Assembly (NCBI GenBank): GCA_013362315.1
Contig: JABFWL010000294.1
Location: 1 to 56,130 of the forward strand
Source of the DNA: Catenulispora sp.
Lineage (GTDB): Bacteria > Actinomycetota > Actinomycetes > Streptomycetales > Catenulisporaceae
Length of the DNA stretch: 56,130 nucleotides
Direction: 5' to 3'
How positions within the stretch are numbered: the first letter of the stretch is position 1; the number at the start of each line of letters is the position of its first letter. A model generated the notes under the pieces. The model had not been told where the DNA came from and searched no databases. It worked only from the letters and a program-made list of their open reading frames with translations. Position numbers and translations under genes: made by a program. Below are positions 10,712 to 56,052 of this stretch, one piece after another.

Positions 10712-10975
10712 TCAGTCGATGGGGACGTGGCGGAGGTAGGGCCACAGGTCGCGCAGGGTTCCGAAGGTCCGGGCGGGCAGGGTCTCCAACAGGGTGATCA
10801 CTTCGGGTCGTGCGCCGGCGGTGGTTGCGGCGGCGAGCAGGTCGGAGCGGTCGGCTGGGAGGGACGTGTCGGCGATGGTGTCGGCGATCTCGCTACGGGT
10901 GACTGCCATGGTGGTGTCCGTTCTGGGGTAGGTGGGCGCGGGCTGGGCTTCTGCGATGGTGAGCGGCTTGTGCAT
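10712..10975 (-). CDS. DUF2795-like small protein
   Basis: ...ADTIADTSLPADRSDLLAAATTAGARPEVITLLETLPARTFGTLRDLWPYLR; DUF2795-like core; start could instead be 10909. Confidence 0.55.
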   Translation of the reverse strand: MHKPLTIAEAQPAPTYPRTDTTMAVTRSEIADTIADTSLPADRSDLLAAATTAGARPEVITLLETLPARTFGTLRDLWPYLRHVPID

Positions 10976-11412
10976 CACGGCCGTCTTGCCGAGCCTGGCT
11001 GTCGGGTGCGCGGGTCGGAGTCGGGCCAGCCGGCGCTGCGCCATTCCCGGAGCTCTCCGGCGGGTTCGATCGTCGCGTGGTTGGCGGTCAGGGCGCTGAG
11101 GACGTCGGTGTGGACGGGGATGGCGGCATGTTCGGTGTCGGTGACGAGGTCCGGGTACCCGGTGGGAAGGGCGGCGATCTCCAGTCGGCGCTGGGCCTTG
11201 GCCAGGCGTAGCGCGGATTCGATGACCGCGGCCTGGCCGAGGCTGGTCCATGCCGTCAGGGCGCTCAGGTCGAGGATCAGCGGGCCGGTTCCGTGGTACA
11301 GGGTCCAGCCGATCGCGCCGTGCAGGATGGGCGCGTCCTTGACCCCGAGTTTCCCGGCCAAGGCCAGGATGCCGACGTCGGGGCGGGATTGGTAGTGCCA
11401 TTGCAGTGACAA
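10975..11412 (-). CDS. STAS-domain-like protein (anti-sigma antagonist fold)
   Basis: MSLQWHYQSRPDVGILALAGKLGVKDAPILHGAIGWTLYHGTGPLILDLSALTAWTSLGQAAVIESALRLA; abuts DUF2795-like gene. Confidence 0.65.
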   Translation of the reverse strand: MSLQWHYQSRPDVGILALAGKLGVKDAPILHGAIGWTLYHGTGPLILDLSALTAWTSLGQAAVIESALRLAKAQRRLEIAALPTGYPDLVTDTEHAAIPVHTDVLSALTANHATIEPAGELREWRSAGWPDSDPRTRQPGSARRP

Positions 11413-11451
11413 GGCGGCGGGGTTCCTTCGTCGAGGGGTCGGGCGGGTGTT

Positions 11452-11619
11452 TCAGGCGGAGCCGTCGATGTCGTCGGTGTCCTGCGCTGTTCCGGGCTGT
11501 TCGGGGGTCTGCACGGCTTTCAGTTCGGCCTGTAGGCGGGCCAGGTCGGTTCCGGTGTCGGTGTACTTCAGCTCGCGGGCGATCTTCGTCTGTTTGGCTT
11601 TGGCTCGGCCTCGTCCCAT
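11452..11619 (-). CDS. DUF3073-like small protein, 55 aa (below ORF-track cutoff)
   Basis: Hand translation MGRGRAKAKQTKIARELKYTDTGTDLARLQAELKAVQTPEQPGTAQDTDDIDGSA*; MGRGRAKAKQTK is characteristic of DUF3073. Confidence 0.85.
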   Translation of the reverse strand: MGRGRAKAKQTKIARELKYTDTGTDLARLQAELKAVQTPEQPGTAQDTDDIDGSA

Positions 11620-11644
11620 CGGGTCCTCCTCGCGGGGTCGGGTG

Positions 11645-12073
11645 TCACAGGGCAGCGGAGATGCGGTGGAAGCGGTGGCCGTCGACGAGCCGCGGTATCA
11701 GCCGCAGGACCCGGACGCCTCGGTCGGACTCGAACCCGGGCAGGGTCCGCCGGTAGTGAGCGCGCAGCACGGGATCGACGACGATCTCGACAGGGCCGGT
11801 AACCGAGACGGACCAGCCGGCACCGGTGGCCTCATCGACCGCCTCGACGAGATAAGTGACCGGCAGCTCGTCGTCCAGCTGCTTCTCCAGTTCGGCGGTC
11901 ATGAGGGCGAGGATGACGACCGCGCCGCGCTCGACCGCGTGGATGCCGGGGCGGCGGGTCGTCATCCCCTCCTTCGCGCAGATCACGAAGCCGACGCCGG
12001 TGTCGCCGAGCAGGTACATCGCTTCGACGCGGAGCAGCGGCGCAAGATGGATCTGCGCGAAGTCTTCGGTCAT
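11645..12073 (-). CDS. Pyridoxamine 5'-phosphate oxidase-like (PPOX fold) protein
   Basis: MTEDFAQIHLAPLLRVEAMYLLGDTGVGFVICAKEGMTTRRPGIHAVERGAVVILA...GWSVSVTGPVEIV. Confidence 0.65.
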   Translation of the reverse strand: MTEDFAQIHLAPLLRVEAMYLLGDTGVGFVICAKEGMTTRRPGIHAVERGAVVILALMTAELEKQLDDELPVTYLVEAVDEATGAGWSVSVTGPVEIVVDPVLRAHYRRTLPGFESDRGVRVLRLIPRLVDGHRFHRISAAL

Positions 12074-13788
12074 CACCCACGCGCCCCGGTCGTCTCGCCT
12101 GTGCGCGGGGCCGGAATGATCCCGGTCCCGGACAGGTGTGCGTGCGCGAACGCGATGGCCTCGGGGGTGGTGGTGAACACGTGCCCGGCCTCGCACAGCC
12201 TGTCGAGTGTCCCGAGCGCGTCCAGTGGCCGCCTGTGCTCCGGGCGGACGCCGGAGACCAGGACCAGCACGCCGCGCCGGGTCAGCTTGTCGATAGCGTC
12301 GGCCAGCACCCCGGCGCCGGAGGAGTCGATGACGCTGATCCGCGACATCCGCAGGATCACCACCTTCACGTCGGCGGTTTCGGTCAGCTCCAGCAGGAAC
12401 CGGTGGGCGGCGGCGAACAGCAGGGGTCCGTCGATGCGGTAGGCGATGATGTGCTCGCCGAGCAGGGCCTGCTCTTCGGCGTGGTGGTCGGCCGGGGGCA
12501 GGTCGGCGTGCAGCGGCACCTGCTCCAGCCGCGCCGCCTTCGACACCTTGGTGACGGCGATGGCGGCGGCCACGACCATGCCGACGACTACGGCGTTGAC
12601 CAGGGTCGAGGCCAGTGTGACGGTCGCGGTCAGGACGAGTATGGCGGTCTCGCCGCGGCTGGCCCTGGCCAGGGCCTTGATGGAGCCGACCTCGACCATT
12701 CGCACCGCGGTGGCGATCAGCACCCCGGCCAGGGCGGCACGCGGGATGTGGGCGACCAACGGCGCGGCGGCGAACACGATGACCGCCAGGACTGCGGCGT
12801 GGACGAGCGAGGCCAGCCGGGACGCGGCGCCGGTGCGGACGTTGACGGCGGTGCGGGCGATCGCGCCGGTCGCGGCGACGCCGCCGAACAGCGGGGCAGC
12901 GATGTTGGCCAGGCCCTGGCCGAACAGCTCCCGGTTGGAGTCGTGCCGCTCGGACACGCTCATCGCGTCGGCCGCCGAAGCGGACATCAGCGACTCCAGC
13001 GCGGCCAGCGCCGCGACCGCCAGCGCTGAGGGCAGCAGGGAAGCGAGGTGCGAGGCTTGGAAGAACGACGTCGACGGAGCCGCCAAGCCCGAAGGCAGGT
13101 GTCCGATGCTCGCCGCCGACAGACCCAGACCCCACACCGCCGCGGTCGCGGCGACCACGGCCAGCAGCGAGAACGGCACGGTGGGGCGCAGCCTGGCGCC
13201 CAGGAGCATCACGGCGGCGACGCCGATCGCGATGGCGATCGGCGTGACGTGCGGGTGTGCGGCGAAATCGCCGACGGCTTTGGCGGCGACGACGGCCGGG
13301 TTGTCGCCGGACGGGGTCTTCACCCCGAGGGCGCCGGGGATCTGCTGAAGGCCGATGACGCCGGCGATGCCGAGGGTGAATCCCTCGACGACCGGCACCG
13401 GGACGTAGGACATGGCCCGGCCGGCGCGCAGCAGGGCCAGCAGCACGAGGATGATCCCGGCCATCAGGCCGACGGTCATCACGCCGTCGATGCCGTAGCT
13501 GTGGACGATCGGGACCAGCACCACGGTCATCGCCCCGGTGGGTCCGGTGACCTGGAGGTTGGAGCCGCCGAACACCGCGGCCAGGGCGCCTGCGACCACG
13601 GCGGTGACCAGTCCGGCCTGGGCTCCGGCACCGGAGGTGATGCCGAACCCGAGCGCCAGCGGCAGCGCGACGACAGCCACCGTGAGCCCGGAGATCAGAT
13701 CGCGGCGCGGCGAGCGGCGCATCGTGCCCAGCGTGGCGGCGTTCGGCAGGACGTCCTTCACCCGGCCGGCGATCAGCGCGGTGCTCAC
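12073..13788 (-). CDS. SulP-family anion transporter with C-terminal STAS domain (GTG start)
   Basis: RRDLISGLTVAVVALPLALGFGITSGAGAQAGLVTAVVAGALAAVFGGSNLQVTGPTGAM...; overlaps arsR stop. Confidence 0.92.
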   Translation of the reverse strand: MSTALIAGRVKDVLPNAATLGTMRRSPRRDLISGLTVAVVALPLALGFGITSGAGAQAGLVTAVVAGALAAVFGGSNLQVTGPTGAMTVVLVPIVHSYGIDGVMTVGLMAGIILVLLALLRAGRAMSYVPVPVVEGFTLGIAGVIGLQQIPGALGVKTPSGDNPAVVAAKAVGDFAAHPHVTPIAIAIGVAAVMLLGARLRPTVPFSLLAVVAATAAVWGLGLSAASIGHLPSGLAAPSTSFFQASHLASLLPSALAVAALAALESLMSASAADAMSVSERHDSNRELFGQGLANIAAPLFGGVAATGAIARTAVNVRTGAASRLASLVHAAVLAVIVFAAAPLVAHIPRAALAGVLIATAVRMVEVGSIKALARASRGETAILVLTATVTLASTLVNAVVVGMVVAAAIAVTKVSKAARLEQVPLHADLPPADHHAEEQALLGEHIIAYRIDGPLLFAAAHRFLLELTETADVKVVILRMSRISVIDSSGAGVLADAIDKLTRRGVLVLVSGVRPEHRRPLDALGTLDRLCEAGHVFTTTPEAIAFAHAHLSGTGIIPAPRTGETTGARG

Positions 13789-14144
13789 GCGGAGGTTCCG
13801 GCTATCGCATCGGCTTCCCGCAGCTCGGCCAGCAGGTCCTGCTGGCCGGTGATCAGCTCGGTGAGGATCCGGCGGGCGGCCCGCATCAGCTCGGCGACGT
13901 CCGGCCCGGCCAGGGAGTACACGACGGTGTCGCTCTCCCGGACCGCGGTGACGATGCCGGATCGGCGCAACACAGCCAGCTGCTGCGACAGGCTGGAGCG
14001 CTCGACCTCGATCGCCGCGAGCAGGTCGCGCACCGGCATCGGCCCGTCCTGCAACAGCTCCAGCACCCGGATCCGGACCGGGTGTCCGAGCATCCGGAAG
14101 AACTCGGCCTTGGCCTGGTACAGCGGAACCGTCACGCTTCTCAC
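13785..14144 (-). CDS. ArsR-family regulator (SulP-operon copy)
   Basis: VPLYQAKAEFFRMLGHPVRIRVLELLQDGPMPVRDLLAAIEVERSSLSQQLAVLRRSGIVTAVRESDTVVYSLAGPDVAELMRAARRILTEL. Confidence 0.9.
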   Translation of the reverse strand: MRSVTVPLYQAKAEFFRMLGHPVRIRVLELLQDGPMPVRDLLAAIEVERSSLSQQLAVLRRSGIVTAVRESDTVVYSLAGPDVAELMRAARRILTELITGQQDLLAELREADAIAGTSA

Positions 14145-14377
14145 TGCTCCGTCCCGTCGCGCTGGATCGGCGGTACCTCGACACCGGACTCCCGGGCCAG
14201 GCCCAGGGCGTCCTCCAGCTCGTCCAAGGCCTCGGCCACCGCGTGGGAGTCGGCGGTGGCGGCGGCCTCGGCCAGCCGCAGCCGGGCGTCGGCAACCCGC
14301 GCGAGCAGCGCCTCGGCGAACTCGTCGGTCTGCGCCACGTTCACGTCGTCCTCACTGTCCTTCACGCGTACTTCCAC
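14141..14377 (-). CDS. Small coiled-coil-like protein, paralog of the 22.5-22.7 kb ORF
   Basis: 78-aa Ala/Glu-rich helical ORF overlapping arsR start by ATGA. Confidence 0.65.
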   Translation of the reverse strand: MEVRVKDSEDDVNVAQTDEFAEALLARVADARLRLAEAAATADSHAVAEALDELEDALGLARESGVEVPPIQRDGTEQ

Positions 14378-14498
14378 TCATCCAGGGGCGCCGGCCACAC
14401 CCCCGACAGGCGTGGCCGGCCGCATGGCACCGGTACCAGGCACCCTCAATCGCTAGCCGTCGGGAGGCGAACCCGGTGTCTGCGCCGACCATCATCGC

Positions 14499-14524
14499 GC
14501 GAATTGAAGGAATCATCAATTCGC
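14499..14524. promoter_or_regulatory. Inverted-repeat operator candidate for ArsR
   Basis: GCGAATTGA-AGGAATCA-TCAATTCGC, perfect 9-bp arms; core TTGAAG-N6-TCAA. Confidence 0.7.
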
Positions 14525-14551
14525 CATGTGGTCCAAGGTAGGATCACGCAG

Positions 14552-14920
14552 GTGAACGAGACCCTGCCACCATGCCCCGAATGCTCATCCGCCTACACCT
14601 ACGAGATGGGTGCCCTGCTGGTCTGCCCCGAGTGCGGCCACGAGTGGGCCGCGACGGGTTCCGCGGAGAACACGGCCGACACGGCTTCCGACGGGGCGAT
14701 CCGGGACTCGGTCGGCAACGTCCTGGCCGACGGCGACGACGTGACGGTGGTCAAGGCGCTCAAGGTCAAGGGCCATCCCACCGGGATCAAGGCGGGGACG
14801 AAGGTGCGCAACATCCGCCTGGTGGCCGGTGTGGACGGCCACGACATCGACTGCAAGATCGACGGCTTGGGCGCGATGCACTCAAGTCCAGCGTGGTCCG
14901 CAAAGCCTGACCTCGGCTGA
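14552..14920 (+). CDS. PhnA/YjdM-like zinc-ribbon protein, apparent 3' frameshift after ~14880
   Basis: GTG start; LPPCPECSSAYTYEMGALLVCPECGHEW...GNVLADGDDVTVVKALKVKGHPTGIKAGTKVRNIRLV..GHDIDCKIDGLGAM; expected tail LKSSVVRKA* lies in another frame. Confidence 0.85.
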   Translation: MNETLPPCPECSSAYTYEMGALLVCPECGHEWAATGSAENTADTASDGAIRDSVGNVLADGDDVTVVKALKVKGHPTGIKAGTKVRNIRLVAGVDGHDIDCKIDGLGAMHSSPAWSAKPDLG

Positions 14921-14926
14921 CACCTC

Positions 14927-16432
14927 TCACAGGTCGTTGCCGGCGTAGGACTGGTTGAAGCTCTTGTTGACCAGGGGGAAGTCCGGCACGATCGCCCCGC
15001 GCAGCGCCACCGGCAGCGCCGGCCAGTTGAAGAACGACGGGTCGACGACCTTGACCCGGCTCAGCGATCCGTCCGGCGTGAGTTCGACGCGGTGCACGAT
15101 CGTGCCGCGCCACCCTTCGGCGATCCCGACCCCGGTCCGGACCCCGCTGCGGCCGGTTCCCGGGTCGCCGCGCTCGGCAGCGACGTGCCGCCCTGGACCG
15201 TGCAGCCGCGCGGTGAGGGTGTTGATGTGCTCGGTGGACTGCTGGTACTCCCCGGCCCGGACAGCGAAGCGTGCCAGGACGTCACCGCCCTCGCGCAACA
15301 CGAGCGGGGGCGCCGAGGTCGGGTCACTGCCGGGATGGTCGCGGCGGGCATCGACATCCAGGCCCGATGCGCGGGCGACGTAGCCGAGCGTCCCGAGGTC
15401 TCGGGCCTGTTCAAGGGTGAGCACGGCGGTGCCGGTGAACCGGTCGCGCACCACCGTGTGTCCGAGGGCGAGGTCGACGGTTTCGGCGACGTCGGCGGCC
15501 AGGGCGGACAGCCGGTCCGGATCCGGCAGCGAGATCACCTGGGCGCCGCCGATGACGATGCCGCCGCGCAGCAGCCGGTGCCCGGTGACCTCGCCGTTGA
15601 TCCGCAGCAGCTGTTCGCGCACGCGGCCGGCGTGCTGGTGCAGGATGCCGTGGCCGACGTCGTTGCACAGCGCCCCGATGTCGCCGATGTGGTTGTAGAG
15701 CCGCTCCAACTCCAGCAGGATCGCGCGCATCGTGTGCGCCTCGGCGGGCACCTTTATGCCCAAGGCGTCCTCGACGGCGCGGGCAAAGGCCAGGCCGTGC
15801 CCGACTGCGGTATCACCGCTGATCTTCTCCGCCAAGGTGAGCTTGTCCGCGGGCCGGTTGCCTTCGAAGAGTTTCTCGATGCCTTTGTGGACGAACCACA
15901 GGCGGGCCTTCAGCTTCAGGATGGTCTCCCCGACCACCGAGAACCGGAAGTGTCCGGGTTCGATGAGTCCGGCGTGCACCGGCCCGACCGGGATCTCATA
16001 GACGCCGGGCCCTTGCACCTCCAGGAACGGATACAGCCCGAGCGTTTCGCCGAACTCCGGGGCGGGCCCGGCGTCGTGGCGCATCGGGTGCCAGCCTGTG
16101 GGCCAGCCGTAGTGCCGGACCAGGCGGCGCGGCATCGGGTGCCCGAGGCTGCGGATCCCGAACAGGTCGTGCATCTCGCGCTCGAACCGCCCGGCCGGGA
16201 ACGACAGCCCGGCCAGGCTCGGCACCTGCGGGCGGTGCCCGTCCAGCCGCAGGCGCAGCTCGATGCGTGAGTCACCCGGGCCTAGGAACAGGTAGACCAC
16301 GCGCATCGCGTCCCGGCCGGCCGTCTGCGGCCGGTCGTGGTGCGCCGCGACCAGGGCCAGGCGGTGATCGGCGTCCAGTAGCCCGATGGCGGTGGCCGCC
16401 AGGTCGCCGGGTCCGACGTCGATGATCCTCAT
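14927..16432 (-). CDS. Ehr/HycE-like (NuoCD-like) large subunit lacking Ni-Fe cysteines
   Basis: VYEIPVGPVHAGLIEPGHFRFSVVGETILKLKARLWFVHKGIEKLFEGN...AEKISGDTAVGHGLAFARAVEDALG...DPSFFNWPALPVALRG...DFPLVNKSFNQSYAGNDL. Confidence 0.9.
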   Translation of the reverse strand: MRIIDVGPGDLAATAIGLLDADHRLALVAAHHDRPQTAGRDAMRVVYLFLGPGDSRIELRLRLDGHRPQVPSLAGLSFPAGRFEREMHDLFGIRSLGHPMPRRLVRHYGWPTGWHPMRHDAGPAPEFGETLGLYPFLEVQGPGVYEIPVGPVHAGLIEPGHFRFSVVGETILKLKARLWFVHKGIEKLFEGNRPADKLTLAEKISGDTAVGHGLAFARAVEDALGIKVPAEAHTMRAILLELERLYNHIGDIGALCNDVGHGILHQHAGRVREQLLRINGEVTGHRLLRGGIVIGGAQVISLPDPDRLSALAADVAETVDLALGHTVVRDRFTGTAVLTLEQARDLGTLGYVARASGLDVDARRDHPGSDPTSAPPLVLREGGDVLARFAVRAGEYQQSTEHINTLTARLHGPGRHVAAERGDPGTGRSGVRTGVGIAEGWRGTIVHRVELTPDGSLSRVKVVDPSFFNWPALPVALRGAIVPDFPLVNKSFNQSYAGNDL

Positions 16433-17916
16433 CGGGTGCTCCAGGGGATCGAGACCGGGGCGGCGGCGGACAGCAGGTGAGCCAGCGGCCAGGCCGCGAC
16501 ACCGATGACCGCCACCACCAGCAGAGCGCTGATCAGCGGAGCCTGAGCGCGCAGCGCCGCGCCGCTCCCGGGCGCGCTGCCGTGCAGGGGGTCGGGGCCG
16601 GCGAGCATCCGCAGCGTGTGCGCGCCGATCGCGGCGAACGCCACCAGCATCAGCGCGAACGCGGCGGCGGTCGGCCAGCCCAGGCCGGCGGCGAACCCGG
16701 CGCGGGCGATACCCACCTCGGAGGCGAACAGCGAGAACGGCGGGAACCCGAGCAGTACCAGCACCGCCGCCCCGAACGTCCCGGCCAGAACCGGGGCCCG
16801 CGCCGCCAGGCCCGTCACGTCCTCGATCCGGCTGGTGTGCTCGGCGTGCAGGATCTGCCCCGATGAGCAGAACGCGACCGCCTTGCCCAGGCCGTGCCCG
16901 GCGATGTGCAGCAGCACCGCCGACAGCGCCAGCGGGGTCCCGGCCGCGGCGCCCAGGGCCATCAGTCCCATGTGCTCCATGGAGGAGTAGGCCAGCATGC
17001 GTTTGAAGTCGCGCTGCCCGATCAGCAGCAGCGCCGCCACGGTAAGCGTGGCCAGGGCGGCGATCAGCAGCAGGGCCCGCACGAACCCGGCCCCCAGGGC
17101 CGCGTCGGCGACCTGCTTGGTACGCAGGATCACCGAGAACGACACCGACAGCAGCACCCCGGACATCAAGGCACTGACCGGCGCGGGGGCCTGGCTGTGA
17201 GCGTCGGGCAGCCAGGAGTGCAGCGGCGCCAGCCCGGCCTTGGCCCCGAAGCCCAGGACGATCAGCGCGATCGCCATCCGGGTCGCCGCCGGGTCCAGCC
17301 GGCGGGCGTGGCCGGCCAGGGCGTCGAAGTCCAGCGCCGAGGCCTCCGACAGCCCGGCGTGCCGGGCCGCGGCGTACAGGATGACGATGCCCAGCAGCGC
17401 CAGAGCGATGCCGACCGAGCAGATCACCACGTACTTCCACGCCGCCTCCACCGCCGCGCGGGAGCGCTTGTGCCCGACCAGGAACGCGGTCACCGTCGTC
17501 GTGGCCTCGATCGCGACCCAGATCAGGCCGAGATTCCCGGCCACCACCGCGCACGCCATCGCCGCCAGGAACGCCTGCACCAACACGGCGTACCGGCGCT
17601 CGCCAGGCCCGTCGCCGTGGCCGTCGGCGCGTTCGCCGGCCAGGTAGCCGCGGCTGGCGGCACAGGCGACGACCGCGACCGCGCCGATGACCATCAGCAG
17701 GAACCCGGCCAGCGGGTCACCGGACAGCCAGCCGGACAGGGCGTCGAAACCACCGTCGCGGACAGTGCGCACCGCAAGCATGACGCCGACGACGAAGATC
17801 AGCGCGGCCGAGGCGGTGCCCAGATGCGCCGTGGACCGGCGCCAGCCCAGGACCAGGTACGCGCCGCTCGCGGCGGCCGGCACGACGATCGGGGCCAGCA
17901 GGAGCAGGGTATTCAT
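16429..17916 (-). CDS. HyfF/HycQ-like proton-translocating subunit
   Basis: KYVVICSVGIALALLGIVILY...GFGAKAGLAPLHSWLPDAHSQAPAPVSALMSGVLL...FKRMLAYSSMEHMGLMALG. Confidence 0.9.
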   Translation of the reverse strand: MNTLLLLAPIVVPAAASGAYLVLGWRRSTAHLGTASAALIFVVGVMLAVRTVRDGGFDALSGWLSGDPLAGFLLMVIGAVAVVACAASRGYLAGERADGHGDGPGERRYAVLVQAFLAAMACAVVAGNLGLIWVAIEATTTVTAFLVGHKRSRAAVEAAWKYVVICSVGIALALLGIVILYAAARHAGLSEASALDFDALAGHARRLDPAATRMAIALIVLGFGAKAGLAPLHSWLPDAHSQAPAPVSALMSGVLLSVSFSVILRTKQVADAALGAGFVRALLLIAALATLTVAALLLIGQRDFKRMLAYSSMEHMGLMALGAAAGTPLALSAVLLHIAGHGLGKAVAFCSSGQILHAEHTSRIEDVTGLAARAPVLAGTFGAAVLVLLGFPPFSLFASEVGIARAGFAAGLGWPTAAAFALMLVAFAAIGAHTLRMLAGPDPLHGSAPGSGAALRAQAPLISALLVVAVIGVAAWPLAHLLSAAAPVSIPWSTR

Positions 17917-18575
17917 CAGTCGTGCAGCTCCCGCAGATCGTCCAGGTCGGTGGTGCCGAACGCCGATTGCATCCGCACCGTCAGCACCCGCAGCACGAGC
18001 ACCACCAGCAGCAGGTCGAAGGACACGCCGATCTCCACCAGCAGCGGCACCCCGGCCGCGGCCAGGAACGCCACCGCGGTGATCCCGTTGTCCAGCAGCA
18101 GGAACCCGGCCACCTGGGACAGGGCCTTGCGGCGGGCCACCAGCATGAACAGACCGATCAGCACCGAGGCCAGACCGACCGGCAGCGCACGGGAGCCTTG
18201 AGAGCCCTCCAGCCGGGCCAGCGGCTGGGCCACCGCGTAGGCCAGCAGCACCAGCGCGGCGGCGACCAGCAGCGACGAGGCGACGTTGACCAGCGGCTCG
18301 CTCTCCCGATCCTCCCCGGAGGCGGCCAGGGCCCGCCGGGCCAGGCCGGGGAGCACCCCGGCCCGCAGCACGCCCACCCCGGCGGCGACCGCGTACAACT
18401 CGGGATGATGCTCGTCGGCGCCCAGCGCCGCGGCGACCACCGCCAGGGCCGCGCCCTGCACCGCCAGCAGCCCGATCACCGCCGACAGCGCCCGGCGCCA
18501 CAGCGCCCCGACCCCGGCCAGCAGGAACACCCCGCAGGCGAAATCCAGGACCTGCACACTCGCCGCACCGCTCAC
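17916..18575 (-). CDS. HyfE/HycP-like membrane subunit
   Basis: Hydrophobic 219 aa between HyfF- and HycD-like genes; SVLIGLFMLVARRKALSQVAGFLLLDNGITAVAFL. Confidence 0.85.
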   Translation of the reverse strand: MSGAASVQVLDFACGVFLLAGVGALWRRALSAVIGLLAVQGAALAVVAAALGADEHHPELYAVAAGVGVLRAGVLPGLARRALAASGEDRESEPLVNVASSLLVAAALVLLAYAVAQPLARLEGSQGSRALPVGLASVLIGLFMLVARRKALSQVAGFLLLDNGITAVAFLAAAGVPLLVEIGVSFDLLLVVLVLRVLTVRMQSAFGTTDLDDLRELHD

Positions 18576-18594
18576 AGCCTCACCCGCCTTCGAC

Positions 18595-19572
18595 TCACTC
18601 CAGGAAGAACGACGCCGCGACCGCGAGCACGGCCAGCAGGAACGACCCGGCCAGCAGCTCCGGGACCCGGAACAGCCGCAGCTTGGCCATGAACACCTCG
18701 CCGGCCGCCAGCACCGCGCCGAGCACGCCGACCTTCACCACGAACAGCGCGGTCGCGCCGAGAACGGCGAGAACACCAGTGGACGTGGCGGTGCCCCAGG
18801 GCAGGAACAGCGCCGACCACAGCCCCAGCAGCACCGACAGCCGCATCGCCGCCGCCAGCTCGACCAGCGCCAGATCAGGCCCGGAATACTCCAACACCAT
18901 CGCCTCATGCACCATGGTCAGCTCCAGGTGCGTGGACGGGTTGTCCACCGGCAGCCGCCCGGCCTCGGCCAGCACCACCGCCGCCAGCGCGAACGCCGCC
19001 AGCACGCTGACCGGCGAGACGACCCGGCCGGCGTCCTTCAACCCGGCGTCCACAATCGCCGGCAGGTTCGTCGAGCCGACCCGCGTGGACAGCGCGAACG
19101 CGGCCATCAGCACCGTCGGCTCGGCCAGCGCGGTGATCGTCATCTCCCGGCTCGCACCCATCCCGCCGAACGCCGTACCGGTATCCAGCCCGGCCAGCGC
19201 CAACGCCGCCGTCCCCAAGGTCAGCAGCGCCACCACGGCGATCAGATCCGCGGCCTCGCCGACGCCGGTGTCCACCGACACGAACGGGATCGCGGCGGCG
19301 ACCATCAGCGTGGTGGCAACCTGGATCAGCGGCGCGGTCCGGAACACCGGGCCGGTGCCGTGCGGGTCAAGAGGCTTCTTGCGCATCAGCTTGCGCAGAT
19401 CCCGCCACGGCTGCCCGACCCCGGCCCCCGCCCGGCCCTCCATCCGGGCCCGCACCTGCCGCATCATCCCGACCAGCAGCGGCGCACCGACCACCGTCAG
19501 CGCGACCTGGAGCACCGAGACCGCGATCCCGGCCCCGGTCGTCGTTGTACCCGTCACCATCGTGCCGCTCAT
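18595..19572 (-). CDS. HycD/NuoH-like membrane subunit
   Basis: RKLMRKKPLDPHGTGPVFRTAPLI...GGMGASREMTITALAEP...EAGRLPVDNPSTHLELTMVHEAMVLEYSGPDLALVELA. Confidence 0.92.
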   Translation of the reverse strand: MSGTMVTGTTTTGAGIAVSVLQVALTVVGAPLLVGMMRQVRARMEGRAGAGVGQPWRDLRKLMRKKPLDPHGTGPVFRTAPLIQVATTLMVAAAIPFVSVDTGVGEAADLIAVVALLTLGTAALALAGLDTGTAFGGMGASREMTITALAEPTVLMAAFALSTRVGSTNLPAIVDAGLKDAGRVVSPVSVLAAFALAAVVLAEAGRLPVDNPSTHLELTMVHEAMVLEYSGPDLALVELAAAMRLSVLLGLWSALFLPWGTATSTGVLAVLGATALFVVKVGVLGAVLAAGEVFMAKLRLFRVPELLAGSFLLAVLAVAASFFLE

Positions 19573-21584
19573 TTCACCGCCGCCAGCGCCACCAGCAGAA
19601 TCACCAGACTGGAGAAGGCGTACCCGAGGTAGCGGTGCACGGAGCCGTTGGCCAGCGCCCGCGCCCGCTCCCCGCACCAGCGCACCGCGATCAGCACCGG
19701 CGCGTACAGCCGGTGCTCGATCCGATCCGGGACAACCCGGTGATAGGACACCCGCTCCACCAGATACGCCGACTCCACCACCGGGGTCACGTCGACATCC
19801 GACTCCGGGGCGAGCACGTCGTCGAAGACCCGCTGCAACGGCTCGGCGAACGACGTCGCCGTGTACTGCATCCGCGCACTCGGCGGACCGGCACCGCAAT
19901 CCCACAACGGCACGGCCCGCCGCCGCACCCCGACGACCAGGCGCAGCAGCCCGGCCAGCACCACCGTCACTCCGACCGTCCCCGCGACCACGACCAGTGG
20001 CGACATCGTGGACCCGAGTACCGTCAGCTTCGTCCGCACCGCATCGGCGACCGCCGGACCGACCGGCGTCACGCCGGCGACCGCTCGGGCCAGCCACGAA
20101 CCCGCCAAACCGGGAGCGACAGCGAGCACGGTCGCGGCCCCGGCCAGCATCAGCATCGCGGCGAGCATCGTGGCCGGCGACTCCGCCGCCCGCGCTGCGC
20201 CGTCGCTGCGCGGCCGGGCCAGGAACCCGGTGCCCAAGGCTTTCACGAAGGTCGCCACCGCCAGCCCCGCCGACAACGCCACCGCCGCCACCGCGATCGG
20301 CAGCACCACCGACACCACTATCCCCGGCACCGCCAGCCCGTGGATCAGCGACTGCAACAGCAGCCACTCGGAGACGAACCCGGCCCCACCCGGCAGCGCC
20401 GCCGCGCCCAGCGCGCCCACCGCGAATGCCGCCGTGGTCACCGGCATCGCCTGCCGAAGACCGCCCAGCGCATCCAGATCCCGGGTCCCGGTGGCCCGCA
20501 GCACCGAGCCGGCGCCGGCGAACAGCAGGGCCTTGAACGCGCTGTGCGTCACCACATGCAGCAGCGCCGCGGCCAAGGCGATCCCAGCAAGCTGCGGCTT
20601 CCCGGCCGAACCGAACAGGCCCGCCGCGCCGACGCCGAGCACGATCAGCCCCATGTTCTCCGTGGTCGAATACGCCAGCAGACGCTTCAGATCCGACGTC
20701 ACCGAAGCCTGCAAGATCCCGTAGACCGCGGAGACGGCGCCGGCGGCCATCGCCAGCAGCCACCACCAGCGCGGACCGCCACCGAGCAGCCCCATCCCGA
20801 CCCGGATGAGACCGTAAACGCCGAGGTTCACCATCACCGCGCTCATCAGCGCCGAGACCGGGCTCGGCGCCTCCGGATGGGCCCGCGGCAGCCAGGCGTG
20901 CAAAGGCACGATGCCCGCTTTCGAGCCGAAGCCGACCAGGGCCAGCACGAACACCGTCCCGCGAACCGCCGGCGACAAGTGGCCGGCGGCGGCACGGATC
21001 GCCGCGAAGGTCTCGCCGTGCGCGGCGGCGGCCAGCCACACCAGGGCGAAAAGGATCAGGACGAACCCGAGCTGGGTCATGACCGCGTACCACAGCCCGG
21101 CCTCGCGGACCTGCTCGCGCCGACGGTGCTCGGTCAGCACCAGCAGCAGCGACGTGACCGCCATCAGCTCCCAGCACACCAGGAACGTCGACACGCTCGC
21201 CGCCGCCGGCACCAGCAGCATGGCCAAGGCGAACAGCGGAAACAGCGCGGAGGCTGCCCGGCCCGGGTCATGGCCGTGCCCGTGGTAGCCGATGCCGTAC
21301 ACCGCGACCGCCAGGACCACCGCCCCGGCGACCGTGATGAACAATCCCGACAGCGCATCGACCCCCAGGTACACCCCGGCCAGCGGCAGCACGTCCGGCA
21401 GACACGCACTGAACGTCCGCCCGGACAGTGCCGCGACTCCGACAACGACCCCGGCCGCCCCCAGCGCAGCCGTCAACACGCCAACGCCCGTCGCCCGGGA
21501 CCTGCGGGGCAGAGCAAGACCGGCCGCCGAAGCCGCCCCGGTGAGCCCGACCGAACAGGCCAGCCCGGCACCGATCAAGTTCAC
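19569..21584 (-). CDS. HyfB-like (NuoL/DabB-superfamily) subunit, probable GTG start
   Basis: VLALVGFGSKAGIVPLHAWLPRAHPEAPSPVSALMSAVMVNLGVYGLIR...DLKRLLAYSTTENMGLIVLGVG. Confidence 0.9.
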   Translation of the reverse strand: MNLIGAGLACSVGLTGAASAAGLALPRRSRATGVGVLTAALGAAGVVVGVAALSGRTFSACLPDVLPLAGVYLGVDALSGLFITVAGAVVLAVAVYGIGYHGHGHDPGRAASALFPLFALAMLLVPAAASVSTFLVCWELMAVTSLLLVLTEHRRREQVREAGLWYAVMTQLGFVLILFALVWLAAAAHGETFAAIRAAAGHLSPAVRGTVFVLALVGFGSKAGIVPLHAWLPRAHPEAPSPVSALMSAVMVNLGVYGLIRVGMGLLGGGPRWWWLLAMAAGAVSAVYGILQASVTSDLKRLLAYSTTENMGLIVLGVGAAGLFGSAGKPQLAGIALAAALLHVVTHSAFKALLFAGAGSVLRATGTRDLDALGGLRQAMPVTTAAFAVGALGAAALPGGAGFVSEWLLLQSLIHGLAVPGIVVSVVLPIAVAAVALSAGLAVATFVKALGTGFLARPRSDGAARAAESPATMLAAMLMLAGAATVLAVAPGLAGSWLARAVAGVTPVGPAVADAVRTKLTVLGSTMSPLVVVAGTVGVTVVLAGLLRLVVGVRRRAVPLWDCGAGPPSARMQYTATSFAEPLQRVFDDVLAPESDVDVTPVVESAYLVERVSYHRVVPDRIEHRLYAPVLIAVRWCGERARALANGSVHRYLGYAFSSLVILLVALAAVK

Positions 21585-22066
21585 CGCCCGGTCACCTGCC
21601 GCAACGCCGCCACGATCGCCTCCGGCTCCGGGGGGCATCCCGGAACCCGCAGATCCACCGGCACCACCTCATCCACGCCGCCGACCACGCCGTAACCGCC
21701 GGCGAACTCCCCGCAGCCGATCGCGCAGTCCCCAACCGCCACCACCAGCCGCGGCTCCGGCGTCGCGGCGAACGTGCGCTTCAGCGCCACCGCCATGTTC
21801 CGCGTCACCGGGCCGGTCACCGCCAGCACGTCCGCATGCCGGGGCGAGGCCACCAGCCGCACCCCGTACCGGTCGGCGTCATACACCGGCCCGAACGCTT
21901 GACCGATCTCGATCTCACAGCCGTTGCACGAACCCGCGTCCACACACCGCACCTGCACCGACCCGGCCAGCGCCCGCTGCGGCGGCAGCCCGGCCGAGCG
22001 CGCCGGCGCGGGCTCGGCCACCCGGCCCAGCGCACGGATCTTTCTCAGCAGACCTCTCATCGCCAT
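21581..22066 (-). CDS. HycG/NuoB-like small subunit with conserved [4Fe-4S] cysteines
   Basis: VDAGSCNGCEIEIGQAF...VVAVGDCAIGCGEFAGGYGVVGGVDEVVPVDLRVPGCPPEPEAIVAALRQV. Confidence 0.92.
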   Translation of the reverse strand: MAMRGLLRKIRALGRVAEPAPARSAGLPPQRALAGSVQVRCVDAGSCNGCEIEIGQAFGPVYDADRYGVRLVASPRHADVLAVTGPVTRNMAVALKRTFAATPEPRLVVAVGDCAIGCGEFAGGYGVVGGVDEVVPVDLRVPGCPPEPEAIVAALRQVTGR

Positions 22067-22137
22067 CCTCACCAGGGGATTGACATGCCCCACGGCGCGC
22101 GAAGGCCGTGCGGCGAAATCAGAAAAGCCGCCGTTCC

Positions 22138-22488
22138 TTAAGAGGAATCGGCGGCCTGCAACTCGGCCAGCAGCTCCCGCTGCCCGACCAGGAGCTCGGT
22201 GAGGATCCGGCGGGCGGCCCGCATCAGCTCCGACACGTCCGGGCCGGCCAGCTCGTACACCACCGTCGAGCCCTCCCGGATCGCCGTCACGATCCCGTAG
22301 CGGCGCAGCACGCCCAACTGCTGCGACAGACTCGACGCCTCGATCTCGATCTCGGCCAGCAAGTCGCGCACCGGCTTGGGGCCCTCGCACAGCAATTCCA
22401 GCACTCGGATGCGCACCGGATGCGCGAGCATCCGGAAGAACTCCGCCTTGGCCTGATACAGCGGAACCTGCGCCACCGTCGATTTCAC
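22138..22488 (-). CDS. ArsR-family regulator (Ehr-operon copy; Rv0081-like position)
   Basis: VPLYQAKAEFFRMLAHPVRIRVLELLCEGPKPVRDLLAEIEIEASSLSQQLGVLRRYGIVTAIREGSTVVYELAGPDVSELMRAARRILTELL. Confidence 0.9.
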   Translation of the reverse strand: MKSTVAQVPLYQAKAEFFRMLAHPVRIRVLELLCEGPKPVRDLLAEIEIEASSLSQQLGVLRRYGIVTAIREGSTVVYELAGPDVSELMRAARRILTELLVGQRELLAELQAADSS

Positions 22489-22739
22489 CTCGCCATCGCG
22501 GCACGAGAGCTTAGGCAGGACACCTTGATCCCGTATTCGGACGCCAGTTCAGCCAGATACGTCAGGCGGGCCAGGTGCAGCTCGACCTGCGCGGCGTCAC
22601 CAGCCAGACGCGCGGCATCAAGAGACCGCCGAGCCTGCCGGACCGTATCCGAGACGGTAGCCGCGAGCTGCTGCACGACCACTTCCCTCCAGACGTCCAC
22701 GCCGAGGACCGCCGTACCCGGCGGAGCGCCCTCCATCAT
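22485..22739 (-). CDS. Small helical protein, paralog of 14141-14377
   Basis: ATGA overlap with arsR; MEGAPPGTAVLGVDVWREVVVQQLAATVSDTVRQARRSLDAARLAGDAAQVELHLARLTYLAELASEYGIKV; start chosen downstream of the palindrome. Confidence 0.6.
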   Translation of the reverse strand: MMEGAPPGTAVLGVDVWREVVVQQLAATVSDTVRQARRSLDAARLAGDAAQVELHLARLTYLAELASEYGIKVSCLSSRAAMAR

Positions 22740-22746
22740 GTCCCTC

Positions 22747-22764
22747 GTTGAAGACTTCTTCAAC
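22747..22764. promoter_or_regulatory. Palindromic ArsR operator candidate
   Basis: GTTGAAGA-CT-TCTTCAAC, perfect 8-bp arms; core TTGAAG-N6-TCAA as at 14504-14519. Confidence 0.75.
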
Positions 22765-23327
22765 ACAACATGCCGATAAGGCGTCAGCGTCTGACTACCA
22801 CCCGCCGATTCGGCCCCTGCCTACCGCCCAGGACCGGCCCTTGGGTTCTACAGCCCCCTGCTCGACAGGCTCGGCCGCTGTCGACCTGGCCGTTGGCAAT
22901 GTGTCCCCGAGCAAGGTCGCTCCGCTGGCAGCCCTACTCCGAACTCGGCGACCTTCACTCGGAAGGGACACTGGTAGGTCACGGGCTCTACCACGTCGGT
23001 CACGCTGTCTCCCCTCGTCCGGCCTGCAACATCGACTCAGCTCCGAGAGGAACCGGTCTTGTCGCACCGAGCCTACGTGCCGACGGCGACATCGATTGGG
23101 TGTTCGCTGATGCCGGGGAGTCGACACTGATTTGCATCGCCCCAGAAATTCCGCTGGTCGTAGCGTTGCAGGTGACTAAGGGTGTGGCTTTCGAAGACTT
23201 GACCGGGAAGTCGGCGAGGCAGTAACAAGTCAACTCTTGAACAGAGTTTCGGCAGTTCCGGGACTGATTCTTCGCACGGCTCAGCTGGGTCTTCGGGCGC
23301 GGGACCAACCTGGGGGGTGGAGAGTGG

Positions 23328-23711
23328 GTGATCGCGATGGTGAGGACGGATTCGGCGGAGGCGCGACGGTCCGCGCTGGCGCTTGGGAGCCCCGCGTTGC
23401 CGGAGGCCGGTGGACTGCCTGCGGTGTTGGATGTGCCGTCGGCGGGGCGCCTGTTGGGGATCGGGCGGACGGTGGCGTATCGGCTGGCTGCGGCGGGGGA
23501 GTTTCCGTGTCGGGTGCTGCGGGTGGGGTGTCAGTGGAAGGTGCCGACGGCCGATCTGCTGGCGGTGTTGGGACTTCCCGCGCAGTCTGCGCCGGCTGTA
23601 GACGGCTGGCCCGGGGGAGACCACAGGTGGAGAGCGGATCATCACGTGGTGATCGCGCGCCGGCGAGGCGGCGGTGCCGGCTCGCGCAGGAGCAGGGGTG
23701 ATCGAGCGTGA
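23328..23711 (+). CDS. Excisionase-like MerR/HTH_17 DNA-binding protein
   Basis: PAVLDVPSAGRLLGIGRTVAYRLAAAGEFPCRVLRVGCQWKVPTADLLAVLGL; ATGA/GTGA-type overlap with integrase. Confidence 0.85.
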   Translation: MIAMVRTDSAEARRSALALGSPALPEAGGLPAVLDVPSAGRLLGIGRTVAYRLAAAGEFPCRVLRVGCQWKVPTADLLAVLGLPAQSAPAVDGWPGGDHRWRADHHVVIARRRGGGAGSRRSRGDRA

Positions 23712-25342
23712 GTGCGGGTTCGGTGTTCAAGAAGTGTGGTTGCCGGGAGCCGGTGCTGGGGCCGACTGGTCTGCCGATGACGGGCGCTGACGGGAAGCCG
23801 GTGGTGCGGCGTCTGGGTGTGAAGTGCCCAAGGCTGCGTCGTGGTTTCGGGTGGAATCCGCGACATGGCACCTGGTATTTCCAGTACGACCACGCCGATG
23901 CCGCCGGCAGCCGGGTGGTGGTGTCTTTCGGGAGTCTGGCCACCCGTGCGGAGGCTGAGGACCAGCTTGCTGCGGTGCGGCGGCTGTTGGGGATCGCCGA
24001 TGAGGTCGGTGACGATCCGAAGGCGGTGGCCGGGCTCAGGGTGCAGATAGCCGCCCGGATCCGGGCCGATCACAAGGCGGGTCTGGGGCTGCCGGAGTTC
24101 GAGGCGATGCGCCGGGCGGTGCTGACCGGTGCGCCGGTGACTGAGCATCTGACGGTGGGGCAGTGGCTGACCCAGTGGCTGGCCGGCAAGACCGCCTTGA
24201 GCGTGTCCACACGGCGGATGTATGCCTCGCAGGTGCGGACCTATCTGATCCCGCATCTGGGCCAGGTCCCTCTGGACCGGTTGCGGGTGGCGCATGTGAC
24301 GGCGATGTTCGACGCGATCGCCGGGGAGGCTGCGGCGGCGGAGGCGAACAACATGGCGCGTCGGGAGGCGGACGCGGCCCGGAAGGCTGCGTGGGCGCGT
24401 GGGGATCGTGTGGCGTGGCGGAAGGCGAAGGACCGGCTGGCTTCGTTGCCGGTGTTCCGGCCGCCGTGTCATGCGGCCACCCGGTTCCGGCTGCGGTCTG
24501 CGCTGCGCTCGGCCCTGTCGGCGGCCTGCGCCCAGCAGCTGGTGACGGTGAACGTGGCGGCGCTGGCGGAGATCGGCTCGGGCCGGTCGCCGAAGGCATT
24601 GGTGTGGACGGCTGAGCGGGTGGCGTACTGGCAGGCGACAGGGAACAAGCCGTCGCCGGTGATGGTGTGGACGGCCGAGCAGACCCGGGCGTTCCTGGAC
24701 CGGGCACAGCGTCATGAGTGGTACGCGCTGTATCTGCTGGTCGCGTGTACCGGGCTGCGCCGGGGGGAGGCCTGCGGGCTGCGGTGGATCGATGTGGACC
24801 TCAATGCCCGAATGATCTCCCCGGCCAAGCAGCGGGTGCAGAACGGCTGGGAGGTGCTGGAAACCGACCTGAAGTCCGATGCCAGCGAACGCGACGTGGG
24901 CCTGGCCGATCAGGTCGTCGAGGCGCTGCAAGCCCAGCGGGAGTGGCAGCAGGAAGCAAGGGAGCGGGCCGCGTCGGCGTGGGTCGAATCGGGGCTGGTG
25001 TTCACGACCGATGTCGGTGCGGGGTTGCACCCGGCCCGGGTCACCGCCCAGTTCAAGCAGCTGGCCCGCGAGGCCGGGCTCCCCCCGATCCGGCTGCACG
25101 ACTTGAGACACGGTGCCGCGTCGCTGGCGCTGGCCGCCGGGGTGGATCTGAAGGTCGTCTCGGACATGCTCGGGCACTCGGGCACGGCCATCACCCGGGA
25201 CATCTACACCTCGGTCTACGACGAGCTGAAACACGCCGCAGCCGCGGCCATCGCCGCCGCGATCAACGGCGCCCGCCGCCCGATAGCTGCACCAGCAGTG
25301 CGGGGCAGACGGACCGCGAAGCCGCTCGCCGCGACGGGTTGA
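23708..25342 (+). CDS. Tyrosine recombinase/integrase (copy 1)
   Basis: LYLLVACTGLRRGEACGLRWIDVDL...RLHDLRHGAASLALAAGVDLKVVSDMLGHSGTAITRDIYTSVYDEL (R..HxxR..H..Y motif). Confidence 0.95.
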   Translation: MSAGSVFKKCGCREPVLGPTGLPMTGADGKPVVRRLGVKCPRLRRGFGWNPRHGTWYFQYDHADAAGSRVVVSFGSLATRAEAEDQLAAVRRLLGIADEVGDDPKAVAGLRVQIAARIRADHKAGLGLPEFEAMRRAVLTGAPVTEHLTVGQWLTQWLAGKTALSVSTRRMYASQVRTYLIPHLGQVPLDRLRVAHVTAMFDAIAGEAAAAEANNMARREADAARKAAWARGDRVAWRKAKDRLASLPVFRPPCHAATRFRLRSALRSALSAACAQQLVTVNVAALAEIGSGRSPKALVWTAERVAYWQATGNKPSPVMVWTAEQTRAFLDRAQRHEWYALYLLVACTGLRRGEACGLRWIDVDLNARMISPAKQRVQNGWEVLETDLKSDASERDVGLADQVVEALQAQREWQQEARERAASAWVESGLVFTTDVGAGLHPARVTAQFKQLAREAGLPPIRLHDLRHGAASLALAAGVDLKVVSDMLGHSGTAITRDIYTSVYDELKHAAAAAIAAAINGARRPIAAPAVRGRRTAKPLAATG

Positions 25343-25452
25343 ACGTCAACGGAGGTCGCATCGGCTACAGCAGCGGACCTTTTGTGGCCTGGCCGACCGG
25401 TTGGGCGCCCGGAGACTTCCTGCAGGTCAGGCGCGATACACCCGGCCGGAGT

Positions 25453-25601
25453 CTGGACCACCCCTGGACCATCGAACTCACAGAGCCCGGATGGCCCCGA
25501 TCCTGCGGACCGAAAATCCACTGGAGCCTGCGCGGAGGTCAGGGCTCGGATATCGAGTTCTGGAACGCAGTCGGAACGCTCCCTGGACCACGCCTGGACC
25601 A
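25453..25601. promoter_or_regulatory. Putative integrase arm-type repeats (CTGGACCA x4)
   Basis: CTGGACCA at 25453, 25464, 25583, 25594; two pairs each with 11-bp period. Confidence 0.5.
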
Positions 25602-25649
25602 AAAGATCAACGGCCCGTCAGATTGTCTAGACCATAGCAAGATCAAAAA

Positions 25650-25689
25650 AGCGAAAGCCCTGGTCAGATACCCTGCCAGGGCTTTCGCT
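25650..25689 (-). terminator. Rho-independent terminator
   Basis: AGCGAAAGCCCTGG ... CCAGGGCTTTCGCT, 14-bp perfect stem; on the minus strand followed by a T-run (aaaaaa on + at 25645-25650). Confidence 0.85.
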
Positions 25690-25736
25690 ACGGGTGCGCC
25701 GTCAGGGACTTGAACCCCGAACCCGCGGATTAAGAG
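25687..25736 (-). repeat. att direct repeat: 3' portion of tRNA-Lys (island left boundary)
   Basis: gctacgggtgcgccgtcagggacttgaaccccgaacccgcggattaagag; matches 56045-56094 with one mismatch. Confidence 0.93.
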
Positions 25737-45800: not shown

Positions 45801-46307
45801 GTTCCCCTGGCCTCGAACAAGATCGTCGCGTCCGTCGTGCTGCCGAACACCGGCGGCCCTGACGGGCACACTCCCACGATCCACGTCTTCGCCATGGCTT
45901 TCAGCGGCCCGTCCCCGGTGATCAGCCTGCGGGCCCATACGAACAACATGATCGTCGCCGCCGACAACGCGGGCTCCTCGCCGTTGATCGCGAACCGGAC
46001 GGCGATCGACACGTGGGGAATGTTCGACCTGATCGGCAACCTGGACGGGAGCGTCAGCTTCCGCGCGCACGCGAACAACATGATCGTCACCGCCGAGAAC
46101 GCCGGTTCCTCCTCGCTCATCGCGAACCGGACGGCGATCAACACCTGGGAAGAGTTCGACCTCATCCAGAACGTCGATCGCAGCGTCGCCTTCCGCGCGC
46201 ATGCGAACAACATGATCGTCACCGCCGAGAACGCCGGTTCCTCGCCTCTGATAGCGAACCGCACGGCCATCGACACCTGGGAGGAGTTCGACCTCATCAA
46301 GGACTGA
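42888..46307 (+). CDS. Secreted GH95-like glycosidase with accessory domain and C-terminal fascin-like repeats
   Basis: Signal peptide; SMPLGNGPLGAAVWAQNGFTAQLNRSDTLPGRKSPGWVQIPGL; HENQWDVQDPVNMIDAMKALFP, NNENDDLESVWPYNLIG; C-terminal 3x (FRAHANNMIVTAENAGSSxLIANRTAIxTWEEFDLI). Confidence 0.75.
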   Translation: MRDAPLVRALTAFVLGAAAVAAAWSSPAATRASAVTVTTAWSNGAFRVGTANLVREADIVLGSPNTAAAQSMPLGNGPLGAAVWAQNGFTAQLNRSDTLPGRKSPGWVQIPGLSRITSAVDFSAVVDPYDGVLRESGGGMTATVYVRADKDELVVDVTGADPNSVQSATVNLWSGRTPAAAAGGGVGTLAETWVDNNATTGSGRTFGSLAALTAGGRNVTASVADSETVKVNFTPNADGSFRVLVGSPSWAGGDAAGTAAALLGADASATSSALQAPHLAWWHNFWANLGLVKLSSADGVANYMEKLRTLYYFTAAEESRGPLPGSQAGVADLFNFSQDSQNFDPAAFWFWNLRGQAAANIGAGAFTLNSGLFNLYTSNLANIQAWTTAKMGGRPGICVPETMRFNGVGYEEGGSPPSISGMSCADPSQQGSFYNARTVSSGAEIGLWVWQQYLTTGDRSFLQQNYPLMQQAATFLLAYTTVGSDGLRHAVANVHENQWDVQDPVNMIDAMKALFPATIAAAQTLNTDPSLVSQLQTAIPQIPDYPRTDQATHQQLLTASADSSGTDVLGQSSQPTAAIHNNENDDLESVWPYNLIGDTSPLFSLAQRTYNHRVNASFPDWSFDAVQAARLGLGSEVASQLSTLTQKYQAYPDGLGSWLGGTGSEPYIEQEANVALAVNEALVQDDDGVLRIAPALPAGWDADGTQYIQGGSTVSVQVHGGVIGTVGIHAGSTAGITVRNPWPGQSVEVVDGTDESTVVVSPTTAGQFSIPATAGKSYLVQQVSAPVAGMTFSVLTGAPATKASHLGTVQIGLDAPVVYRNLAASFNNVGITADTNTAPGNFDGGTASLSQTAMSNAGAAPGATITSSGVTFTMANVAAGTADNTVTKGQIIAMPGGGTSLGFLLTGTYGPVTAPGTIVYTDGSTQSYTLTSPDWFSTTPPTGGAVAVNSAYQNRPGNTTYVHTADVFSETVPLASNKIVASVVLPNTGGPDGHTPTIHVFAMAFSGPSPVISLRAHTNNMIVAADNAGSSPLIANRTAIDTWGMFDLIGNLDGSVSFRAHANNMIVTAENAGSSSLIANRTAINTWEEFDLIQNVDRSVAFRAHANNMIVTAENAGSSPLIANRTAIDTWEEFDLIKD

Positions 46308-46327
46308 AAGGACTGACACCGGCAGGC

Positions 46328-46364
46328 GTGTCCGCCGTGGACGGCAACGCCCCACGGCGGACAC
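46328..46364. terminator. Intercistronic hairpin
   Basis: GTGTCCGCCGTGG ... CCACGGCGGACAC, 13-bp perfect stem. Confidence 0.65.
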
Positions 46365-46409
46365 CCGCACCTCGACATCGCGCCGCTTTCCGTCTCTCAA
46401 GGAGCACCA

Positions 46410-49655: not shown

Positions 49656-49686
49656 TGATCGGCTGCCCCACCCGAGCATGACGACT

Positions 49687-49722
49687 GACGCGTGCGGTCG
49701 CTGGACGTCGACCGCACGCGTC
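49687..49722. terminator. Intercistronic hairpin
   Basis: GACGCGTGCGGTCG-ctggacgt-CGACCGCACGCGTC, 14-bp perfect stem. Confidence 0.65.
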
Positions 49723-49744
49723 GGTCCCACCCTGAGAGGTTGAC

Positions 49745-55940: not shown

Positions 55941-55959
55941 CTGGACCACGCCTGGACCA
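55941..55959. promoter_or_regulatory. Putative integrase arm-type repeat pair
   Basis: CTGGACCAcgcCTGGACCA. Confidence 0.5.
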
Positions 55960-56042: not shown

Positions 56043-56052
56043 CTGCTACGGG

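Follow-up and report, generated by a model that had tools for sequence, protein, structure and literature searches.

Two operons of different content, one encoding a SulP anion transporter and the other a complex I-like membrane complex, each open with a small helical protein and an ArsR-type regulator behind a palindrome in a 56,130-nucleotide stretch of Catenulispora sp. DNA (the window). This raises the question of whether they form one regulon, as the first-pass annotation proposed, or separate switches. Both ArsR genes and both small ORFs lie where that annotation had placed them, the ArsR genes on the minus strand, and each small ORF overlaps its ArsR gene by 4 bases (Table 1).

Table 1. 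Genes and putative operators of the two operons, together with one example of the ubiquitous small-protein paralogue
Feature	Position	Strand	Remarks
Small helical-hairpin protein coil2	22485..22739	-	First gene of operon 2; stop overlaps ArsR2 start
ArsR2, Rv0081-type repressor	22138..22488	-	Recognition helix EASSLSQQL
Oxidored_q6 small subunit, HycG/NuoB-like	21581..22075	-	Operon 2
Proton_antipo_M membrane subunit, HyfB/NuoL-like	19569..21638	-	Operon 2
NADHdh subunit, HycD/NuoH-like	18595..19560	-	Operon 2
HyfE-like membrane subunit	17916..18575	-	Name based on its conserved position, flanked by HycD and NuoM in Hyf loci; no match in the Pfam search
Proton_antipo_M membrane subunit, HyfF/NuoM-like	16429..17931	-	Operon 2
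HycE-like large subunit, 30 kDa + 49 kDa fusion	14927..16432	-	No CxxC motif
PhnA/YjdM zinc-ribbon protein	14552..14920	+	Divergent from operon 1
Small helical-hairpin protein coil1	14141..14377	-	First gene of operon 1
ArsR1, Rv0081-type repressor	13785..14144	-	Recognition helix ERSSLSQQL
SulP anion transporter with C-terminal STAS domain	12073..13788	-	Operon 1
Pyridox_ox_2 flavin-binding protein	11645..12076	-	Operon 1
DUF3073 small protein	11452..11619	-	Operon 1
Stand-alone STAS protein	10975..11412	-	Scores under the Pfam cut-off here
DUF2795 small protein	10712..10909	-	Last gene of operon 1
Operator 1 (putative), GCGAATTGAAGGAATCATCAATTCGC	14499..14524	.	GCGAATTGA-N8-TCAATTCGC; minus-strand reading TTGATG + 17 nt + GATGAT
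Operator 2 (putative), GTTGAAGACTTCTTCAAC	22747..22764	.	GTTGAAGA-CT-TCTTCAAC; 8-bp perfect arms
Ubiquitous small-protein paralogue (example)	G000 contig C631, L321:5129-5314	-	Next to an inositol-monophosphatase-like gene

The best PDB match of the two ArsRs is Rv0081 from M. tuberculosis (PDB code 6JMI, E 8.5e-30), followed by NmtR (6e-11); Rv0081 shares 50% identity with the window ArsR, including the conserved PLYxxKAEFF and LSQQLxVLRR motifs. On this comparison the window ArsRs are classified as Rv0081 orthologues, closer to it than to any other solved ArsR. ArsR1 and ArsR2 are close paralogues, as had been noted from the sequence (78-80% identical, with DNA 81% identical over 326 bp), but they are not recent duplicates of one another: the tree assigns them to separate paralogue groups, and ArsR1 and a third ArsR, encoded on contig C279, are the more recent duplicates. 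The host genome (7.97 Mb in 770 contigs, 82% complete) contains only these three close paralogues, the other two being 80 and 74% identical to ArsR2, and the next-best proteins reach 31-37%. The third copy comprises an operator, a small ORF, ArsR and SulP, with an adjoining phosphoketolase gene. At this locus (L014 389-7625) ArsR-SulP is divergent to the phosphoketolase gene and close to a gene for a GAF-type histidine kinase, neighbours that suggest a fermentative or oxygen-poor setting.

In the hypoxia network of M. tuberculosis Rv0081 acts as a hub, and we know of no signal established for its sequence cluster. The protein dimerises and represses its own transcription through an inverted repeat in its promoter, has no defined metal site, and occupies more than 700 ChIP sites in M. 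tuberculosis, so that its specificity in vivo may exceed any motif (PMC6177252). A sequence-network study describes the cluster as largely uncharacterised and not obviously metal-sensing (PMC10509353).

The contents of operon 2 (Oxidored_q6, two Proton_antipo_M proteins, NADHdh, the HyfE-like protein and the 30/49-kDa fusion) are arranged as in nearly all of the mycobacterial loci, where the same gene order follows the Rv0081 orthologue, and by gene content and order operon 2 is identified as the counterpart of the formate-hydrogenlyase-like locus Rv0081-Rv0088, with an orthologous regulator heading the same complex I/Hyf-like gene set. Both this correspondence and the orthology of the regulator are additions to the earlier account. 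The HycE-like large subunit contains no CxxC motif, compared with the two of group 4 [NiFe] hydrogenases, so no Ni site is expected and the complex is of the Ehr type rather than a hydrogenase; it resembles Ehr complexes in its complex I-like membrane and peripheral subunits and in a HycE-like subunit devoid of nickel ligands, and differs from other Ehr complexes as an actinobacterial branch tied to an Rv0081-type repressor. The mycobacterial system shares the operator type and the lack of a metal site; nevertheless, there are three copies of the regulator here, all of them preceded by a co-translated small helical protein, and only ArsR2 heads a Hyf/formate-hydrogenlyase-like operon, whereas ArsR1 and the C279 copy, two of the three, head SulP operons instead. 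The Pyridox_ox_2 protein of operon 1 and Rv0080 belong to the same broad fold superfamily. Another mark of the Rv0081 type is induction in hypoxia through DosR; in the window, by contrast, DosR-like boxes are no commoner than chance, with five one-mismatch matches compared with 6.9 expected, and DosR input is not supported here.

The small ORFs upstream of the two ArsR genes encode homologous proteins, a model from which the second window copy had been left out recovering that copy with an E value of 1.5e-6, and each is predicted to form a two-helix hairpin. Members of this family lie directly upstream of 19 of 183 ArsR orthologues, always in sense, and a paralogue of about 57-61 residues was detected in 60/60 relatives searched; in the contexts read, this ubiquitous paralogue adjoins an inositol-monophosphatase-like gene and, in most, also a response regulator. 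Searches of Pfam and NCBIfam with the small protein and its ubiquitous paralogue returned no credible match, and the small ORF represents a real, unnamed family of predicted helical hairpins with a ubiquitous paralogue elsewhere.

The palindromes reported upstream of the operons are both present at their exact positions; operator 1 is not perfect throughout, however, as its 9-base arms are perfect and its 8-base centre is not fully palindromic. The pattern TTGAAG-N6-TCAA gives three matches in the window, one site being read on both strands, compared with 0.00 expected in shuffled sequences. The genome-wide search that the first-pass annotation had suggested returned exactly three sites, one next to each of the close ArsR paralogues, and the pattern TTGAWGANNYCWTCAA recovered the same three places with zero mismatches. 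On the minus strand operator 2 reads TTGAAG + 17 nt + CATGAT, its left half doubling as a -35-like box.

The operator was compared across 183 distinct orthologue loci, drawn from relatives, from a sample across the class and from named genomes, mycobacterial and other. A strict TTG-N10-CAA palindrome occurs within 450 nt upstream of 102 of the 183, compared with 1.7% of control windows; at the other 81 the strict form was not found, most mycobacterial loci having a one-mismatch form and some others none. Orthologous loci therefore keep the palindrome at an equivalent place across the class, and the prospect that they might lack it, raised beforehand as grounds for abandoning the idea, did not materialise. 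nTGATAAATTCTTCAA, the one-mismatch form, precedes the Rv0081 orthologue by about 50-60 nt in most Mycobacterium loci examined, and a 95%-identical Rv0081 orthologue has CTGATAAGTCCTTCAA. When ten predicted Rv0081 sites were assayed by EMSA in published work, seven were bound, including GAGAATTC and AAAACTTC (PMC4757040), and these two resemble the centre of the TTG-N10-CAA operator. In 101 aligned sites, numbered from the first T, columns that had not been selected for are conserved too, namely A at -1, T at +18 and A-N-A-T at +23 to +26, with A-N directly before the palindrome and N-T directly after it. This conserved spacing supports a promoter reading in which the left half supplies a -35-like TTGxxx and A-N-A-T stands at the expected -10 position, although a consensus promoter scan of both operon heads gave no passing hit. 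The palindrome is best described as a conserved putative operator of the Rv0081-type family, TTG-N10-CAA, overlapping the promoter; at sequence level, it reproduces the inverted repeat in the own promoter that marks Rv0081-type regulators. Given how close operator 2 lies to the start of coil2, the transcript must have no leader or a very short one. At the other operon, TAGGAT (14539-14544), seven bases ahead of the phnA GTG, is a possible -10 element whose -35 region would fall inside operator 1, a position that suggests a leaderless phnA transcript and that ArsR1 may also control phnA.

Half-site sequence correlates with the recognition helix. Of 61 classified orthologues with S-S or S-N ahead of LSQQL, 59 carry TTGA half-sites, and of those with other residues 29/29 carry TTGC half-sites; all three host-genome ArsRs combine an S[SN] helix (SS, SS, SN) with TTGA sites. 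The ArsR tree, which is poorly resolved, shows at least 13 changes of operator class, and the tree-based test of the rule yielded three supported independent pairs, all in agreement, too few for significance. The helix/half-site rule is strong as a correlation, but not proved as a series of independent events.

Within the genus, SulP-type sites read TTGATGATTCCTTCAA, an identical 16-mer in all six loci read, and Hyf-type sites follow a distinct conserved variant, TTGAAGA-N2-TCTTCAA. Among Streptomyces-like relatives, paralogues coexisting in one genome have TTGAAGA, TTGCAAAA or TTGCTAA operators, a diversity suggesting that the usual design may be one of separate autoregulated switches. The ArsR paralogue groups occupy separate tree branches with distinct site variants, ArsR1 and ArsR2 among them. 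In a congener (G001), the Hyf operon is preceded by DUF3073/DUF2795 genes with a second perfect operator (C112:23233-23248; L046, ~18234) close to them.

The model that we favour, with a probability of about 0.76, starts from what the sequences show, namely the orthology, the conservation and position of the operator, its genome-wide exclusivity, the helix/half-site correlation and the gene neighbourhoods; binding, repression, signal, cross-talk, transporter substrate and the role of the small protein are the parts we infer. Each operon would be an autoregulated unit under its own Rv0081-type ArsR repressor, a dimer of which would bind TTG-N10-CAA, where the left half also serves as a -35-like box with the -10-like A-N-A-T about 17 nt further on. 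Bound ArsR would exclude RNA polymerase from the operon of small protein, ArsR and effector genes and, at operator 1, ArsR1 would probably also exclude it from the divergent phnA. Once repression is lost, expression would rise for the SulP module, in operon 1 and in the C279 copy, or for the complex I-like membrane complex of the Ehr type in operon 2. A metabolic signal, related to CO2/bicarbonate, redox or hypoxia, is most likely, rather than a metal or one read by a conserved thiol. Partial cross-repression may occur, as the three paralogues share the recognition helix and the operator class, with each group keeping its own site variant.

A stricter version, in which the paralogues are fully insulated, the operators resemble one another only through shared ancestry and no ArsR acts beyond its own promoter, is quite possible, although we would not expect it: paralogue-specific site variants and the co-divergence of helix and half-site (59:2 versus 0:29) argue for it, but the S[SN]-versus-other rule fails to separate the paralogues of the window, and the co-divergence comprises only three supported independent pairs on the tree.

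A cross-wired regulon, in which ArsR1, ArsR2 and the C279 ArsR bind all three operators and switch transport and the membrane complex together, is possible but doubtful. The operator class and helix residues are the same in all three, the operons are adjacent here and SulP lies near Hyf in some Streptomyces-like relatives, and the DUF3073/DUF2795 genes found by the SulP operon in the window stand by the Hyf operon and the extra operator in the congener. Cross-regulating ArsR paralogues are also known from Pseudomonas putida, whose ArsR1 and ArsR2 have nearly identical operators in one genome (PMC7994332). That pair, however, senses arsenite and heads duplicate ars operons (PMC7994332), whereas the window ArsRs are devoid of an arsenic site and head functionally different operons; moreover, the SulP-type and Hyf-type variants are separately conserved within the genus, and the differing operators of coexisting Streptomyces-like paralogues imply insulation. 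Of the single regulon originally proposed, the common operator class and helix stand and leave room for cross-regulation, but the private site variants and the divergent Streptomyces operators speak against it, and separate autoregulation with possible leakage appears slightly more likely.

The partners of these regulators bear on the signal. Neighbourhoods compared across the orthologues, as had been recommended, show that SulP and the Hyf/Ehr-like complex both recur beside Rv0081-type ArsRs: within 3.5 kb of the 183 orthologues there are 65 with SulP, 74 with a Hyf-type complex (a count inflated by the mycobacterial query), 22 with GTP-dependent phosphoenolpyruvate carboxykinase (GTP-PEPCK) and 4 with β-carbonic anhydrase, the last two neighbour families being confirmed. 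SulP stands near 33/63 orthologues of the class sample and PEPCK near 14/63. Because SulP is rare in genomes (present in 25 of 40, usually as a few genes), the ArsR-SulP association is far above chance; exactly two SulP genes were found in the host genome, both behind Rv0081-type ArsRs. The ArsR tree shows at least 10 switches between SulP and Hyf contexts. The order ArsR - GTP-PEPCK - SulP forms an apparent operon at L255, L257, L258 and L259, and PEPCK lies beside ArsR at L251, L252, L143, L145 and others.

The combination of SulP, PEPCK and carbonic anhydrase points to inorganic carbon, without thereby proving the transporter substrate. The SulP of operon 1 resembles SulP/BicA bicarbonate transporters in its Sulfate_transp + STAS architecture and, in relatives, its PEPCK or carbonic anhydrase neighbours; nevertheless, it scores under the cut-offs of the NCBIfam DauA, SulP and BicA models (243 versus 880 bits for BicA), and a substrate assignment would be an inference from context. 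The original guess of an anion, bicarbonate or sulfate, thus gains comparative support on the bicarbonate side while missing the BicA cut-off. A wider reading takes the Rv0081 family as a regulator of CO2/bicarbonate or closely linked redox state, with a shared operator whose half-site is set by two helix residues, heading bicarbonate-type SulP, GTP-PEPCK, carbonic anhydrase and formate/CO2-type complexes and, in part of the class, modulated by the 60-residue helical protein; we rate it as rather unlikely. Our literature search on ArsR with SulP or PEPCK returned nothing on point. Judged against the literature examined, the operator common to the class, the rule linking helix to half-site, the association with SulP and PEPCK and the family of small proteins are new. 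The regulatory arrangement as a whole is real and well conserved, and places a known type of regulator in a new combination. The operator and the simple helix rule should make direct Rv0081-type targets predictable in any actinobacterium, and a concrete class of candidate signals is suggested by the recurrence of SulP, PEPCK and carbonic anhydrase as partners.

Two further arrangements were observed in Streptomyces-like relatives: (i) a conserved possible leader hairpin, GCTGTGTCCGC-AGGTAGCC-GCGGGCACAGC, between the operator and ArsR-SulP (L049, L051, L053, L054 and L057), with no match in Rfam; and (ii) a conserved pairing of a small protein, which we read as roadblock-like, with an Rv0081-type ArsR, with a TTGAAGA operator between them (L065-L076), the small protein having no match in Pfam.

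A metal- or arsenic-responsive function is very unlikely. Family-level domain matches, to HTH_5 and to an NCBIfam metalloregulator subfamily model, favour it, but ArsR1 has no Cys and one His, and ArsR2 one Cys (C34, missing from ArsR1) and one His, too few for ArsR, CadC or SmtB sites; these counts bear out the earlier remark that neither protein has a classical metal site. Rv0081 itself and its cluster, as described above, point the same way (PMC6177252; PMC10509353). Neither ArsR1 nor ArsR2 displays the Cys-rich or α5 metal site of ArsR/SmtB metalloregulators or the conserved cysteine pair of persulfide-sensing SqrR/BigR, and metal or thiol sensing by either was rejected, the required residues being absent.

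That the palindromes are chance repeats, terminators or recombination sites, as the integrase genes close to operator 2 might suggest, is extremely improbable given the genome-wide exclusivity of the three sites, their conservation at orthologues across the class, and the terminator evidence, with none at operator 1 and one weak match near operator 2 lying off the palindrome.

Elsewhere in the window, the integrase regions 23423-25736 and 53799-56094 are 85% identical over 2.3 kb. A tRNA gene (56053-56125) marks the end of the second region, as would be expected if it were an integrative element or the decayed copy of such an element. This tRNA, at the window end, was the only match when the window and selected loci were searched against Rfam, and RNA-based control was rejected on that result. 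Several internal direct repeats of 73-84% identity lie inside long ORFs at 39737-40729 and 45922-53221, which probably encode repeat-domain secreted proteins.
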